From IMG/VR virus record IMGVR_UViG_3300023119_000127, positions 1 through 23,692 of that record: a stretch of 23,692 nt of DNA; one strand, given 5' to 3'. Shown here in pieces: positions 1,103 through 21,823 of the stretch (the first letter of the stretch is position 1; every line of letters starts with the position of its first letter). The position numbers and the translations under genes were made by a program. This DNA comes from a virus. The notes beneath the pieces were generated by a model. It made no database searches. It was not told the DNA's origin and saw only the letters and a list, made by a program, of their open reading frames with translations.

Positions 1103-1217
1103 CCACTATGCTTATGCTAGGAAACTTAGAGCAAAAGTTCTTAAACTCTTAATGAGAAAACTTATCAAGGGTTTTCCAGTAATTTTGCCAGATAAATATC
1201 TGAAAAATAATACCTGA
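1092..1217 (+). CDS. Possible 41-residue basic protein
   Basis: An ATG inside the end of the previous gene opens a 41-residue frame starting MRNNHYAYARKLRAKVLK and ending in the TGA at 1215-1217. It is strongly basic and probably helical (RKLRAKVLKLLMRKLIK), with a short end PVILPDKYLKNNT. Coding support is the 11-nt overlap with the upstream stop, which is common in this genome, and the filling of an otherwise empty gap. Against it: no clear Shine-Dalgarno, no family, and its stop codon lies inside the 23-nt repeat (1208-1230). It could be spurious. Confidence 0.4.
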   Translation: MRNNHYAYARKLRAKVLKLLMRKLIKGFPVILPDKYLKNNT

Positions 1218-1230
1218 CGTTTAAGAATAA
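1208..1230 (+). promoter_or_regulatory. Repeat element copy 1, candidate phage promoter
   Basis: This 23-nt sequence (TAATAC followed by CTGACGTTTAAGAATAA) recurs exactly at 21801-21823, and its last 17 bases recur at 21717-21733. All copies have the same orientation, lie at the end of a gene and precede an untranslated structured stretch. The TAATAC start resembles the beginning of T7-class promoters, but copy 2 lacks it. Host-type -35/-10 boxes are not conserved around the copies. A promoter for a phage RNA polymerase is the simplest reading; a binding or packaging site is possible. Confidence 0.5.
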
Positions 1231-1235
1231 CTTTG

Positions 1236-1379
1236 CTAAGGCTCTGCCAAAGTGATACTAAAGGACTCTCTTACTGGTACTTGAAAAGAGATGCTCTGTA
1301 TGCCCCCCGATAGTACCCACCGAGTATACTCATGTAACTCTTTTCGGGGGGTTATTAAGTATCACTTTGGTATCCTTAG
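1236..1379 (+). ncRNA. Structured RNA candidate (long-range stem with three-way junction)
   Basis: A closing stem pairs 1236-1241 with 1374-1379 (6 bp), then an internal loop, then 1247-1259 with 1358-1370 (13 perfect pairs). Inside are two nested branches: TCTCTT 1267-1272 with AAGAGA 1286-1291, and CCCCCCGA 1303-1310 with TCGGGGGG 1344-1351. GAAAAGAG (1283-1290) is also a perfect complement of CTCTTTTC (1338-1345). That gives either a switch between two folds or a pseudoknot next to the C6/G6 helix. GGTACT (1276-1281) can pair with AGTACC (1312-1317). It contains no credible gene. It lies 6 nt after repeat copy 1 and before a terminator-like hairpin. It may be a small RNA or a 5' leader of the gene at 1449; no known RNA family is recognised. 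Confidence 0.6.
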
Positions 1380-1382
1380 TGT

Positions 1383-1418
1383 AAGAATTTAAGATTATAA
1401 TTTAAGTTCTTGTTTTTT
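1383..1418 (+). terminator. AT-rich terminator-like hairpin
   Basis: Bases 1383-1393 pair with 1401-1411 (11 pairs, two of them G-U) around a 7-nt loop. Six Ts follow at 1413-1418, and another T-rich run at 1420-1430. The layout is that of an intrinsic terminator, but the stem is AT-rich and probably leaky. It sits between the structured RNA and the ribosome-binding site (1436-1440) of the next gene, so it could end a small RNA or act as an attenuator. Confidence 0.5.
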
Positions 1419-1448
1419 ATTTATTTTTTATTAATAAGGATTTTAATT

Positions 1449-4047: not shown

Positions 4048-4430
4048 TGGCTAGAGCAAATCCACGCATTTGGGAAAGAGCAAAGGCTAAAGCTAAAGCT
4101 CGTATGGGTGGTAAACATTCTGCTAGAGCCATGCAATTAGCCGCTAAATACTATAAAGACATGGGCGGTAAATACACTGGTGGTAAAACAGCAGCTCAGA
4201 AGTCTATGACTAAATGGACTAAACAAGACTGGGGTACTAAGAGTGGTAAGAATAGTGTTCTTGGTAAAGATGCTACTGGTGAGCGTTATTTGCCTAAAAG
4301 GGATCGTGAAAAGCTTACCAAAGCACAGTATGCCTCCACCACTAGAAAAAAGCGAGCTGACCTTAAGAAGGGAAAACAATTTTCCCAACAGCCCAAAAAG
4401 GTCAAGAAAAAGTTAGGTCGTAAAAAGTGA
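4047..4430 (+). CDS. DUF5872-like basic protein
   Basis: A 127-residue, strongly basic protein with recognisable blocks in order: ANPRIWERAKAKAK at 4-17, a sARAmQLAAKYYKDMGGKY segment at 25-43, KWTKQDWGTKSGK at 56-68, YLPKRDREKLT at 81-91, and a QFSQQPKK tail at 111-118. This order (N-P-x-x-W, then W-T-x-x-x-W-G-T-K-S-G, then Y-L-P-K) matches my memory of the DUF5872 family, found in phages and in giant viruses of algae and amoebae. Its function is unknown; a DNA-associated role is suspected from charge. It directly precedes terL, which starts inside its stop region, so the two are translationally coupled. Confidence 0.7.
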   Translation: MARANPRIWERAKAKAKARMGGKHSARAMQLAAKYYKDMGGKYTGGKTAAQKSMTKWTKQDWGTKSGKNSVLGKDATGERYLPKRDREKLTKAQYASTTRKKRADLKKGKQFSQQPKKVKKKLGRKK

Positions 4431-5752
4431 TAAAGTTACATGAGAAACAGTCAGAAGTTATTAGAGATTTATTTGTAAATAAGAGTAATCGTTATGCAGT
4501 AGTTAATGCTAGTCGAGGCTTTGGCAAGTCTTACTTAGCAGCTACAGCGGCTATTATAGCAGTACAAGAATTAATGAATTTAGATGAGGATGTTCCTAAT
4601 AAGAACGTAGCCCTCATTGCCCCTACCTACAGCCAAGCAGTAGATATTTACTATCCACTGATAGCTTGGCAACTGGGTATGGAGGACTTTGCTGATAAGG
4701 CTTCTAAAGCAGCAGGACAATTTTGGTTTCCAAATAACGTTCAGCTTAAGCTTTGGTCTTATGAAGCATCACAACGTATGCGGGGTACAGGCCAGTATTT
4801 TATAGTAGCCGATGAGGTTACTTCTTGGAAGGGTGCTGGTATGAACCTTAAAGAGTCATGGGAATCAATTATACAACCTTGTGTTGCTACTCGTTGGTCT
4901 CCTATGAACGCTAAAAAGTTTAACGCTAACTCTGGTCGAGCACTTATTATTAGTACTCCCAGTGGTTATGATTATTTCTATGAGATGTATAACAGACAAG
5001 ATTATGATGATGACTGGAAAAGTTATACATATACATACAAGGATTCTCCTTTCTTAGATGAAGAGGAGATTGAAAGGGTAAAGCTAACACTGGACCCCTT
5101 AAAGTTTGCTAGAGAATATACTGCAAGCTTTGAAGATTCAGGTAATAATGTGTTTTATACGTTTAATCGTAAAGAGCATATTGACAATACACTTCAAAAT
5201 TTTGAGGAAGGTGAAGACGTTCATGTCGCTATTGACTTTAACGTTGGAATCATGGCCTCAGTTATCTTTGCTATTCGGGGAAATCAAATCCAAATACTGG
5301 ATGAGATGCAAGGACACCCCGATACTGAAACCCTAGCAAGAGCGCTTAAGGAAAAGTATAATGATCATCGTATCATTTCTTATCCTGATCCTGCTGGGAG
5401 GGCGAGAAAAACTTCAGCTGCTGTCGGTGTTACTGATTTCAGGATCCTAGAGACACACGGTATATTTACCAGAGCACATACAAAAGCTCCACCGATTGTA
5501 GACTCAGTAGCAGCTGTGAATAAAAAGTTTAAGAACGCCAATGGTGATATTGACATGCTAGTTCATCCTAAGTGTGTTAATACCATTAAGTCTCTAGAGC
5601 GTACACAGTGGGTAGAGTCTAACCCAGATAGTGCCACGATTGATAAAAAAGAAGGTATTGAACATTGGACAGATGCACTGCGCTATGCAGTAGAATATCT
5701 ATATCCAATCAGAGCAGGAACTAAAGTCGTTAAGCGTGGCTTTAATTTCTAA
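4427..5752 (+). CDS. terL: Terminase large subunit (DNA packaging ATPase/nuclease)
   Basis: A 441-residue motor protein that cuts concatemers and pumps DNA into the prohead through the portal. The N-terminal ATPase has Walker A SRGFGKS (29-35), Walker B FIVADE (about 124-129) and the coupling motif STPSG (about 176-180). The C-terminal RNase H-like nuclease begins at VAIDFNVG with Asp270, followed by a YPDPAGRARKT segment (about 323-333) and WTDALRYAVEYL near the end. The Arg-Gly-Phe-Gly-Lys-Ser P-loop is of the kind found in T7-like and related terminases. Length is short but complete. The start is a GTG overlapping the previous stop; no in-frame ATG lies near. Whether packaging uses cos, pac or terminal repeats cannot be read here. 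Confidence 0.93.
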   Translation: MIKLHEKQSEVIRDLFVNKSNRYAVVNASRGFGKSYLAATAAIIAVQELMNLDEDVPNKNVALIAPTYSQAVDIYYPLIAWQLGMEDFADKASKAAGQFWFPNNVQLKLWSYEASQRMRGTGQYFIVADEVTSWKGAGMNLKESWESIIQPCVATRWSPMNAKKFNANSGRALIISTPSGYDYFYEMYNRQDYDDDWKSYTYTYKDSPFLDEEEIERVKLTLDPLKFAREYTASFEDSGNNVFYTFNRKEHIDNTLQNFEEGEDVHVAIDFNVGIMASVIFAIRGNQIQILDEMQGHPDTETLARALKEKYNDHRIISYPDPAGRARKTSAAVGVTDFRILETHGIFTRAHTKAPPIVDSVAAVNKKFKNANGDIDMLVHPKCVNTIKSLERTQWVESNPDSATIDKKEGIEHWTDALRYAVEYLYPIRAGTKVVKRGFNF

Positions 5753-7550: not shown

Positions 7551-10013
7551 ATGGCATATGATCTTACGATTAATCAACAGCAATACCAAGCAAGTCTAGC
7601 CCGAACAGGTGGGCAAGGCAGCAAAGGTGATTCTGTTACTAGTGTAACAATGAATGAAGATGGTGATCTTATTGTTGTTATTTCAAATTCTGCGGGGAAT
7701 GTTGTTTCAACAACTAATGTTGGCGGTTCAACTTATATTGCAGCTACAGAAGCTCTTTATGATAGTTTTGATGATCGTTACTTAGGCCATAAAACTTCAG
7801 CACCTACAGTAGACAATGACGGTGATGCCCTTTTAACAGGAGCTATTTACTTTGATACTACAAGTAGTAGCCTTGGTGTATACAATGGCACAGCCTGGGA
7901 ATATCCAGTATCAGAAGCACAAGCGGCTCAGACAGCGGCAGAAACAGCTCAGACAGCAGCAGAACTAGCAGAGACTAATGCATCTACTTCAGAAACCAAT
8001 GCGGCTACCTCTGAGACTAATGCGGCAACCTCTGAAGCTAATGCTCTTGCATCCCAAACTGCATCAGCCACTTCAGAAACAAATGCATCGACTTCTGAGA
8101 CTAATGCAGCTACATCAGAAACAAATGCAGCTACTTCTGCAGCTAACGCTTCGACTTCTGAGACTAATGCAGCTGCTTCTGAGTTAAACGCAGCTACTTC
8201 TGAAACAGCAGCCGCAAATAGTGCTACAGCGGCGGCTACAAGTGCAACTAACGCAGCTACTTCTGAGTCAAATGCGGCGACTTCCGAAAGTAACGCCTCA
8301 ACAGCAGAAGGCAATGCACTATCTTATGCTAACGATGCAGCAACCTCTGAAGGTAATGCCTCGGCTTCTGCTTCTGCAGCGGCTGTATCAGAAGCTAACG
8401 CAGCAAACTCCCAATCAAGTGCGTCTACAAGTGCAACTAACGCTGCTACTTCGGCGACTAATGCTGCAACTAGTGAAAGTAATGCAGCTACAGCTTTGTC
8501 TCAAGTACAAACTATTTATGATAACTTTGACGATCGTTACTTAGGTAATAAGAGTTCAGATCCAGTAGTTGATAATGATGGTAATGCTTTAGTTACTGGT
8601 ACGTTCTATTACAATACAACAACTAATGAACTAAAGGTCTTTAGTGGTTCTGCTTGGGTTGCACCTTCAACAAGTGCTTCCAACAGTGCTTCAGCGGCAG
8701 CTTCTAGTGCAACGGCGGCGGCAGCTTCGGCTACTGCGGCAGCATCTTCCGAAACAGCGGCAGCAAGTTCTGAATCAAACGCAGCTGCAAGTGAGTCTGC
8801 TGCGGCTACTTCAGAATCTAATGCAAGTACTTCGGAAACTAATGCAGCTGCCTCAGAAAGTAATGCAGCGGCTTCAGCGGCAGCAGCAGCAGCTAGTTAT
8901 GATAGCTTTGATGATCGTTACTTAGGCGCAAAAGCTTCTGATCCTACTCTTGATAATGACGGTGACGCTCTTATTGACGGTGCCTTGTACTTTGATACAA
9001 CTAATAACATTATGAAGGTGTACGACTTAGGTACAACTTCTTGGTTGCGTACAACACCTACAAGCAGTGATCAAACAGCTATTAATACCGTTTCAGGTAT
9101 TTCTTCTGATGTAACAACTGTTTCAGGAATTAGTTCTGATGTTTCTATTGTTTCGGGGATTTCCGCTGATGTAACTAGTGTCTCTGCTAATGAAGCAGAC
9201 ATTTCTACAGTAGCAGGTGTTTCAACAGATGTAAATACTGTTTCAACAATATCAAGTAATGTTACTACAGTAGCAGGGATTTCATCAGACGTAACTTCAG
9301 TTGCAGGAAATTCTACTAATATTAATACTGTTGCAACTAACATTGGTGACGTTAATAGCTTTGCTAATAAGTATCGTATTTCAGCATCAGCACCTACAAC
9401 TTCTTTGGATAGTGGTGATCTGTGGTGGAATACAACTAACAATGAGCTAAGAGCTTATAATACTACTAATAGTGTATGGCAAGCAACAGCACCTTCTGCA
9501 GCAGATCAGACTGCTATTAATATTGTAGCAGGAGATCTGGTTTATTCAGAAGATCTAGGATCAATTACTGATACTGTTACAACAGGTAGCGGAAGCTCAA
9601 TTACTGTTGTTGGAGACGCTATTGCAGATGTAACTGCGGTGGCTACAGATATTAGTGACGTTACTACCGTTGCAGCTTCTATAACAGATGTTAATACCGT
9701 TGGGACAAATATCGTTAGTGTAAATACAATTGCGCCTTATATGAGCGACATTAATCGTTATGCTACACAATATGTTATTTCAGCAACAGCTCCTAGTAGT
9801 CCTTCTCCAGGAGATTTGTGGTATGATAGTGTAGCCAATACACTAAAGTTTTATACAGGTAGTGTATTTGCTTCGATTTCAGCAGGTATTTCTGATATTG
9901 TTAGCGATACAACGCCCCAACTAGGTGGCACACTAGATGCTCAAGATAATGATATGACAAACGTAGGTACCATTTCTGGTTCTAACCTTCAGCTAGACTT
10001 TGGAGGTCTATAA
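7551..10013 (+). CDS. Repetitive Ala/Ser-rich tail fibre protein
   Basis: An 820-residue fibre. After an N-terminal part with GGQGSKGDSV (about 20-29), it alternates two element types. The first is a module of about 50 residues with FDDRYLG, a D-N-D-G-x-A-L turn, a Y-F/Y-D/N-T strand and a final aromatic strand; it starts near residues 70, 322 and 448. The second is low-complexity stalk: about 121-320 and 370-447 consist of A-T-S-E-S/T-N-A repeats of 7-residue type. From about 500 come VSGISSDVTTVSG-type repeats, then two related G-D-L-W-x-x-T/S modules (near 622 and 752) and a short tail. This is a trimeric, T7/T4-type fibre: coiled or shaft repeats with globular inserts. It lacks a recognised receptor-binding or chaperone domain at the end, so the distal part may be formed by the next proteins. 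The start overlaps the previous stop region. Confidence 0.88.
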   Translation: MAYDLTINQQQYQASLARTGGQGSKGDSVTSVTMNEDGDLIVVISNSAGNVVSTTNVGGSTYIAATEALYDSFDDRYLGHKTSAPTVDNDGDALLTGAIYFDTTSSSLGVYNGTAWEYPVSEAQAAQTAAETAQTAAELAETNASTSETNAATSETNAATSEANALASQTASATSETNASTSETNAATSETNAATSAANASTSETNAAASELNAATSETAAANSATAAATSATNAATSESNAATSESNASTAEGNALSYANDAATSEGNASASASAAAVSEANAANSQSSASTSATNAATSATNAATSESNAATALSQVQTIYDNFDDRYLGNKSSDPVVDNDGNALVTGTFYYNTTTNELKVFSGSAWVAPSTSASNSASAAASSATAAAASATAAASSETAAASSESNAAASESAAATSESNASTSETNAAASESNAAASAAAAAASYDSFDDRYLGAKASDPTLDNDGDALIDGALYFDTTNNIMKVYDLGTTSWLRTTPTSSDQTAINTVSGISSDVTTVSGISSDVSIVSGISADVTSVSANEADISTVAGVSTDVNTVSTISSNVTTVAGISSDVTSVAGNSTNINTVATNIGDVNSFANKYRISASAPTTSLDSGDLWWNTTNNELRAYNTTNSVWQATAPSAADQTAINIVAGDLVYSEDLGSITDTVTTGSGSSITVVGDAIADVTAVATDISDVTTVAASITDVNTVGTNIVSVNTIAPYMSDINRYATQYVISATAPSSPSPGDLWYDSVANTLKFYTGSVFASISAGISDIVSDTTPQLGGTLDAQDNDMTNVGTISGSNLQLDFGGL
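7967..8497 (+). repeat. Short in-frame repeats coding for the fibre stalk
   Basis: The DNA here is made of degenerate units near 21 nt (and 42 nt) coding for T-S-E-T/S-N-A-A, recognisable by recurring ACTTCTGAGACTAATGCAGC-like strings. Codon variation between units is large, so the repeat is old or is being scrambled. Such arrays change length readily by slippage and recombination. A smaller block lies at about 8660-8890. Confidence 0.85.
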
Positions 10014-21260: not shown

Positions 21261-21712
21261 TGAGTTTTAAATTATCAAATCGTAGTTTAGGAAAATTAGA
21301 AGGTGTTGATGAAAACTTAGTAGCAGTTGTAAAACGAGCTATTGAGTTAACTAAAGTAGACTTCGGAGTTGTTTATGGACTTCGTACTGTTGAAGAGCAA
21401 GAAAAACTTGTTGCAGCAGGTAAGTCTCAGACAATGAAATCAAAACACCTAGAAGGTCGTGCAGTAGACCTTATGGCTTATGTAGATGGAAAAGGTTGTT
21501 GGGAACTAAATGTTTACGATGATCTTTGTGACGCTATGAAAGCAGCTGCAGAAGAACTAGGTGTAGCTATTAAATGGGGAGCTGCTTGGTCAGAGGGCGA
21601 TATTCGTTCTTATCCAGGAACAGCAGAAGACGCTATGATGAAATACATTGATTTACGTCGATCACAAGGACGTAGACCCTTCATAGATGGACCTCATTTT
21701 GAACTAATGTAA
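21260..21712 (+). CDS. Endolysin, M15 L-alanyl-D-glutamate-type peptidase
   Basis: A 150-residue zinc peptidase that cleaves peptide bridges of peptidoglycan. The zinc ligands are visible: SKHLEGRAVDLMAY gives His63 and Asp70, and DGPHFEL gives His146; Asp143 lies at the place of the catalytic acid three residues before the last His. VVYGLRTVEEQEKL (37-50) is the usual N-terminal R-T-x-x-E/D-Q part, and IKWGAAWSEGD (104-114) the central W-G block. It lacks a signal peptide and a cell-wall-binding domain, so it depends on the holins and is a compact, one-domain endolysin as in T5 and many marine phages. Its stop is followed 1 nt later by repeat copy 2. Confidence 0.92.
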   Translation: MSFKLSNRSLGKLEGVDENLVAVVKRAIELTKVDFGVVYGLRTVEEQEKLVAAGKSQTMKSKHLEGRAVDLMAYVDGKGCWELNVYDDLCDAMKAAAEELGVAIKWGAAWSEGDIRSYPGTAEDAMMKYIDLRRSQGRRPFIDGPHFELM

Positions 21713-21713
21713 A

Positions 21714-21733
21714 TAGCTGACGTTTAAGAATAA
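21714..21733 (+). promoter_or_regulatory. Repeat element copy 2, candidate phage promoter
   Basis: The 17-nt core CTGACGTTTAAGAATAA is exact here (21717-21733). The upstream TA is kept, but the following C is changed to G and the TAATAC start is lost. It begins immediately after the endolysin stop codon and is followed directly by a folded segment at 21734-21772. See the copies at 1208 and 21801. Confidence 0.5.
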
Positions 21734-21772
21734 AGAGACAGGAAAAACACTCAAGTTTACCTGAAAGTCTCT
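21734..21772 (+). ncRNA. Structured leader or small RNA after repeat copy 2
   Basis: AGAGAC (21734-21739) pairs with GTCTCT (21767-21772). AGG (21740-21742) pairs with CCT (21760-21762) across a GAAA bulge. AAAC (21745-21748) pairs with GTTT (21755-21758) around ACTCAA. A stacked hairpin thus begins at the first base after the repeat and is directly followed by the GC-rich hairpin at 21773-21797. No reading frame is credible here. It could be a transcript's 5' structured end or an RNase processing site. Confidence 0.5.
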
Positions 21773-21797
21773 AAGGGGGTGGGTGCGCTCACCCCTT
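21773..21797 (+). terminator. GC-rich hairpin, probable terminator
   Basis: AAGGGG(G)TG at 21773-21781 pairs with CACCCCTT at 21790-21797, with one bulged G and an 8-nt loop. The U tract after it is poor (ACTTAATACC), so termination may be partial. It lies between repeat copies 2 and 3, and ends the region downstream of the lysis genes. Confidence 0.55.
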
Positions 21798-21800
21798 ACT

Positions 21801-21823
21801 TAATACCTGACGTTTAAGAATAA
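21801..21823 (+). promoter_or_regulatory. Repeat element copy 3, candidate phage promoter
   Basis: This is identical over 23 nt to copy 1 (1208-1230). It starts 3 nt after the hairpin at 21773-21797. It is followed by ACTAGGGG and an 80-nt AT-rich leader (21824-21903) that holds no gene and ends in the ribosome-binding site AGAGGT before ATG 21904. Being placed directly before a three-gene unit that leads into the portal gene fits a promoter for the head genes. Confidence 0.55.

Follow-up and report, generated by a model that had tools for sequence, protein, structure and literature searches.

Structured leader RNAs behind a phage promoter have precedents as a kind. The late mRNAs of T7-like phages begin, like the RNA described here, with a stem-loop placed behind a T7-type promoter at the start of a late operon, and their RNase III sites (R sites) likewise consist of a duplex with an asymmetric internal loop. 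These T7 sites are, however, simple hairpins, for which neither an invariant loop nor a conserved core with a pseudoknot is known, and in this the present RNA is unlike them. A precedent for an RNA in the packaging motor is the pRNA of phage phi29. In the window, by which we mean the whole stretch of 23,692 bases that was analysed (a virus record, and itself a fragment), an RNA element of ~155 bases (1231-1385) stands at the start of the late operon, which carries the packaging and tail genes. The RNA and its parts, the three repeat copies, the second leader structure, the AT-rich element and the genes at 1449, 2347 and 4427 lie on the + strand.

A sequence-only reading of this DNA had proposed an undescribed RNA element at this place. 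The element indeed matches no Rfam family, is evolutionarily constrained and follows a promoter-like repeat, in the place of a leader. Against the 4227 families of Rfam 15, the window gave no match at the gathering threshold and none that was meaningful up to E 10, nor was anything matched over the RNA in 12 relatives. DNA similarity of the RNA to isolate phages was likewise absent, and no description of it was found in the open-access literature. The RNA family thus has no earlier entry in Rfam or in the papers open to searching. Two kinds of structure follow the repeat, of which type A is represented in the window by the one at 1231 and type B by the one at 21734. With 11 type A sequences as input, a covariance model retrieved the RNA from ~60 viral contigs. 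A core pattern that is independent of the promoter matched 50 stretches of viral DNA; among bacteria and archaea, 84,980 genomes (one genome per species) gave no match, so that the element is viral within the collections searched; its carriers are mostly uncultured marine phages. One match of the core pattern (L291) lacks a match to the model and was discarded as chance, and the antisense matches of the model at 18-36 bits mirror the stems and are not separate elements.

Fold and covariation of the RNA

From a long closing stem, P1, the RNA passes into a three-way junction with the hairpins P2 and P3 and a pseudoknot. P1 counts 11 + 12 pairs on the two sides of a 5/3-nt internal loop, and is free in sequence and variable in length. 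Its outer part P1a pairs 1231-1241 with 1374-1385, with one bulge and with compensatory changes in 11/11 pairs; the inner part P1b pairs 1247-1258 with 1359-1370, with compensatory changes in 10 of the 12 pairs and 100% of the cells paired. Between the two, CUCUG (1242-1246) faces UAU (1371-1373). P2 has an outer stem of 1263-1265 with 1295-1297, paired in 92.6% of the cells, and a hairpin at 1267-1291 (1267-1272/1286-1291) with compensatory changes in five of six pairs. The loop of this hairpin (1273-1285) follows the pattern A-Y-Y, six-nucleotide pseudoknot strand, UGAA, and measures 13 nt in 30/30 sequences. In P3, CCCCCCG (1303-1309) pairs with CGGGGGG (1345-1351), five C-G pairs being invariant in the 30 sequences, and the distal part (1318-1344) is variable, with other hairpins of other lengths in the relatives. 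Stems at 1247-1259/1358-1370 and 1236-1241/1374-1379, as well as a C6/G6 helix, had been read from the letters before; both stems are present as described, and the helix is the 1303-1309/1345-1351 pairing of P3, the core of which is invariant. Thermodynamic folding, the check proposed together with these stems, shows the RNA to be far more stable than its shuffles: 1225-1385 folds at -56.5 kcal/mol (z -5.3) and 1208-1448 reaches z -4.4, with 0/200 shuffles equally good in either case.

Evolution has kept the shape of this RNA, including the pseudoknot, while its letters changed, and the element is a conserved structured RNA family. The covariation test that the sequence-only reading had called for was based on 30 distinct sequences, with identity down to ~42% and a median of ~63%. 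Standard base pairs fill 98.1% of the 1,259 cells, which are not to be equated with independent events, many of the 30 rows being mutually related. Both sides have changed in 35 of the 45 pairs (reached by 0/500 shuffles), a count that leans towards the structure for P1, P2 and P3, to which the alignment was fitted, and the same changes appear in MAFFT alignments made without a structure model. When the partners are slid by one to three columns, pairing falls to only 45-52%. Compensatory changes, the mark of a new RNA family, are found in every variable helix and in the pseudoknot. The parts that do not vary are the 13-nt P2 loop with its UGAA and the C5-G/C-G5 of P3. Within the internal loop of P1, positions 1242 and 1246 change together, being C-G or U-A in 25/25 sequences with letters there, which hints at a defined three-dimensional motif.

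The inverted arms are long and near-perfect, and could for that reason be taken for chance or for a DNA-level inverted repeat without an RNA role. Such an origin does not agree with covariation that extends to the pseudoknot and that none of the 500 shuffles reached. Furthermore, the paired positions hold 77 G-U pairs against 9 A-C mismatches, an excess that fits an RNA of the + strand. As far as computation can do so, this explanation is refuted, and we give it practically no credence.

The true pseudoknot joins GGUACU (1276-1281) in the P2 loop to AGUACC (1312-1317) just inside P3. All six pairs form in 30/30 sequences, and this pairing was absent from the model used for aligning; some members were retrieved by a pattern that restricts the letters of the pseudoknot strands to the observed kinds and does not demand that they pair. 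It exists in seven sequence versions: GACAUC/GAUGUC, GGUACU/AGUACC, GACAUU/AAUGUC, GAUAUC/GAUAUC, GGUAUC/GAUACC, GAUACU/AGUAUC and AACAUC/GAUGUU. In contrast, the complement 1283-1290/1338-1345, which had been put forward as a pseudoknot or a competing pairing, exists in the window and is fully paired in only 4/30 distinct relatives, and we rejected it as a conserved element. A hammerhead-like reading of the letters CUGA and GAAA in the P2 loop was also set aside, because the letters between them are the pseudoknot strand and there is no stem II. Neither does the pseudoknot form a ring around the 5' strand, as it would in an exonuclease-resistant RNA (xrRNA), since it lies within P1 and the 5' end is paired in the outermost stem.

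A three-way junction with a loop pseudoknot recalls the architecture of aptamers, and with the invariance of the loop nucleotides this would favour a late-leader switch that responds to a metabolite or a protein; a switch in the leader had been suggested earlier. However, no conserved alternative fold or expression platform was seen, P1 has at least 23 pairs, and late genes of such phages would, in our judgement, rarely need a metabolite switch. Read at the level of their sequences, L192 and the L285 group have P1 rewritten yet paired, and in L168 it is rewritten and extended well past the model with its pairing kept. A switch appears improbable, given the great stability of the closing stem and the fact that these relatives lengthen or fully rewrite it without losing its pairing.

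Promoter-like repeat, polymerase and neighbouring genes

The 23-nt repeat TAATACCTGACGTTTAAGAATAA at 1208-1230, already recognised in the sequence-only reading, occurs three times in the window, where no copy is expected by chance: a repeat search places the second copy at 21711-21733 (2 mismatches) and the third, exact, at 21801-21823. At least 118 viral-contig stretches contain its core 17-mer, and in most members of the RNA family the repeat lies directly upstream. The repeat lines up with the T7 promoter, TAATACGACTCACTATAGGGAGA, sharing TAATAC and the G at +1, and this alignment predicts a transcript GAAUAA... starting at G1225, which is probably +1. Like promoters of the T7/SP6 type, the repeat measures 23 nt, has a TAATAC block and shows a +1 G followed by an A-rich start; its middle block CTGACGTTTAA differs from theirs, and we regard the repeat as a candidate promoter. 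Relatives of the window do encode a T7-like RNA polymerase: the T7-type polymerase family is present in 11 of 20 records that carry the repeat, six of these 11 with an open frame of 706-737 aa at E 1e-80 or better, and the example in G001 matches T7 RNA polymerase itself with E 4e-62. In two large relatives the promoter-like sites are intergenic, at gene boundaries and on the coding strand. As such, a repeated motif of ~23 nt, its intergenic place, its orientation along the coding strand and a polymerase encoded in relatives come together as they do for T7-like promoters.

Divergent members of the L286 group come without a recognised promoter. Upstream of divergent copies of the RNA, a motif CCGACTAATGATAA is common to L168:326, L285:1982 and L292:5770, and it may possibly be a promoter for a polymerase of other specificity. 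A further observation concerns contig G003, where L283:10900-15261 encodes a protein of 1,453 aa with an N-terminal Mu gpF-like minor head part and a C-terminal single-subunit RNA polymerase domain. The same head/polymerase gene adjoins the portal in G001 and in DSS3_VP1/PM1; head morphogenesis protein or minor head protein is all that the annotations of the isolates record for the fusion. It is possible that this fusion is a polymerase carried in the virion.

Downstream of the RNA, a same-strand homologue of phrog_15261, followed by the large terminase where the contig reaches that far, is found in nearly all loci with enough sequence. L168 has another small gene before the phrog_15261 homologue, and in L121 the downstream sequence is insufficient to judge the order. 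In the window these are the small gene at 2347-2721 and, by gene annotation, the terminase large subunit at 4427-5752; phrog_15261 is possibly the small terminase subunit, judging by position alone. The gene at 1449 (phrog_8198, 1449-2192), to which the sequence-only reading had linked the RNA as a structural gene, turns out to be an optional neighbour: it follows the RNA in the window, L003/L004, L018 and L068 alone. In the other loci, phrog_15261 (gene 2347) or other small genes follow directly, and we rejected the gene at 1449 as a regulated partner. In L109, L036, L018 and L056, the RNA is preceded at a short distance by tRNA genes of the same strand, and in the window an Hsp20 small heat-shock protein gene (phrog_432, 445-828) stands upstream of it. 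Group I introns were seen in or near the large terminase gene at L168:2665-2908, L109:3509-3780 and L036:9768-10016. Within the tail-fibre gene (7551-10013) of the window, a 21-nt periodic repeat spans 7926-8935.

That the element keeps its place immediately ahead of phrog_15261 and the large terminase would suit a packaging RNA or a packaging-site element. However, this synteny fits a leader equally well, the large terminase is of the ordinary tailed-phage type, and no pRNA is known outside phi29-like motors. A packaging role is very improbable. Many relatives also conserve an AT-rich element upstream of gene 2347 and behind the RNA or, where it intervenes, phrog_8198 (2221-2310 in the window), with the blocks TTTTCAATA...TATTGAAAGTAAT...AAAATTTT. 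The primary origin of T7 uses phage promoters beside AT-rich DNA, and the locus could by analogy be a replication origin, with a promoter, a structured primer transcript and a downstream unwinding element. Since a primer would not need conservation of an RNA core, and neither G001 nor G003 has a turn of its GC skew at the element, we consider an origin highly improbable.

The other late promoter pair (21711/21801) likewise leads into a conserved hairpin leader. This second structure (21734-21797) is made up of a bulged hairpin GAGACAG...CUGAAAGUCUC (21734-21772) and a GC-rich hairpin (21774-21797); the whole folds with z -3.45, and it is conserved behind the motif in ~28 distinct relatives. 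Type B leaders, ahead of the portal operon, follow the order of promoter-like repeat, bulged hairpin GRGACAG...CUGANAGUCUC and GC-rich hairpin, often with a second promoter copy ~90 nt on. The arrangement at 21711-21823 of the window is also seen in L019, L021, L024, L030, L043 and others, and the type B leader of L090 shows a compensatory change GUGAC/GUCAC. That this second late leader folds differently bears on the idea of an RNA that binds the phage RNA polymerase and modifies it for the late operon (antitermination or processivity), for which the put RNA of HK022 would be the model, though here for a T7-like enzyme. As the first RNA expected from the late promoter, with an invariant core and an operon of ~20 kb behind it, the element would be suitably placed. 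We know, however, of no antitermination or processivity RNA of this sort for T7-like polymerases, and with the different fold of the second leader, this role seems unlikely.

Possible roles at the head of the late operon

Our preferred reading, held tentatively and with somewhat less than even confidence, is that the element is a structured leader at the 5' end of the late-operon transcript, which the phage polymerase would synthesise, and probably acts in cis on the stability or processing of the mRNA. The phage's own T7-like RNA polymerase would transcribe it from G1225, so that it would form the first ~160 nt of the mRNA of the packaging and tail operon, and a role in cis at the 5' end of this late mRNA is the most likely one. 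Only ~6 nt would protrude ahead of P1, which could therefore seal the mRNA end against decay that depends on the 5' end. Furthermore, RNase III could cut the P1 duplex, whereby the mRNA would be matured and the rigid core of P2, pseudoknot and P3 released; the length of the duplex and the position of its internal loop fit such a site. P1 being free in sequence but always paired argues for this reading. Moreover, a start codon lies ~18-24 nt behind the RNA in L003, L068 and L121; barring its release by cleavage, the RNA is a 5' leader in these three.

The same three relatives, where a terminator has no room, bear on the opposite proposal of a stand-alone small RNA that would target RNAs or proteins of the host or the phage in trans, and that would be ended by an A-U hairpin or released by processing. 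A terminator-like hairpin with T6 had been pointed out behind the RNA and is present (1382-1419, the hairpin itself 1382-1413). As an intrinsic terminator it does not stand: the hairpin is weak and almost all A-U (-6.9 kcal/mol, z -2.2), shares 4 nt with the base of P1a, and is not conserved, so that the stable and conserved hairpin with a U run expected of such a terminator was not found at 1382-1419. L003 and L068 leave 18-21 nt to the start codon, with no room for the hairpin. Both the window and L018 do have a hairpin with a U run behind the RNA, which speaks for the small RNA and against a cis-acting leader, as does, against the latter, the L286 group with its lack of a recognised promoter. 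The compact, independent domain with its invariant core and the variation of the gene directly behind it would also suit an action in trans. However, the place ahead of the late operon is fixed, and the operon behind the RNA has no other predicted promoter; a trans-acting small RNA is, on balance, somewhat unlikely.

Returning to the cis-acting leader, end protection does not account for all of the element. The core is conserved far beyond the needs of such protection, and must therefore bind or do something more specific; we infer, besides a stabilising role, a partner for the invariant core. It is conceivable, if rather doubtful, that the core is a free-standing functional RNA (in the packaging motor, binding the polymerase, or a ribozyme) that is cut from the leader via the variable P1. 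Such a release of the core from the late leader, which would then take place in a widespread group of marine phages, would resemble that of rRNAs through their processing stems.

Comparison with known systems

Structured RNAs with compensatory change to this extent, including a pseudoknot in seven versions, nearly always have a specific function. With a defined core, a candidate promoter and a polymerase at hand, the RNA is directly testable, and it could reveal a new coupling of T7-like transcription to mRNA maturation or packaging.

The nearest isolates are the Naomviridae roseophages DSS3_VP1 and DSS3_PM1, with a terminase 68% and a portal 52% identical, a similar gene order and the same RNA polymerase gene pair. 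The promoter repeat is absent from both, and the RNA was not found in 17-42 kb of DSS3_PM1 (25 kb searched with filters off). Like phi29 pRNA, the element is a phage RNA of 120-170 nt with a stem, two hairpins and a loop pairing, and here it adjoins terminase genes; no match of the RNA to that family, or to a phage packaging RNA family, was found in Rfam. The terminase type and the phage family differ between the two, and the loop pairing here fits within one molecule. GOLLD and similar large, ornate phage-associated RNAs are likewise structured and noncoding, and are known mainly through metagenomes and phages; compared with GOLLD at ~800 nt, the present RNA reaches 155 nt and has a different structure.
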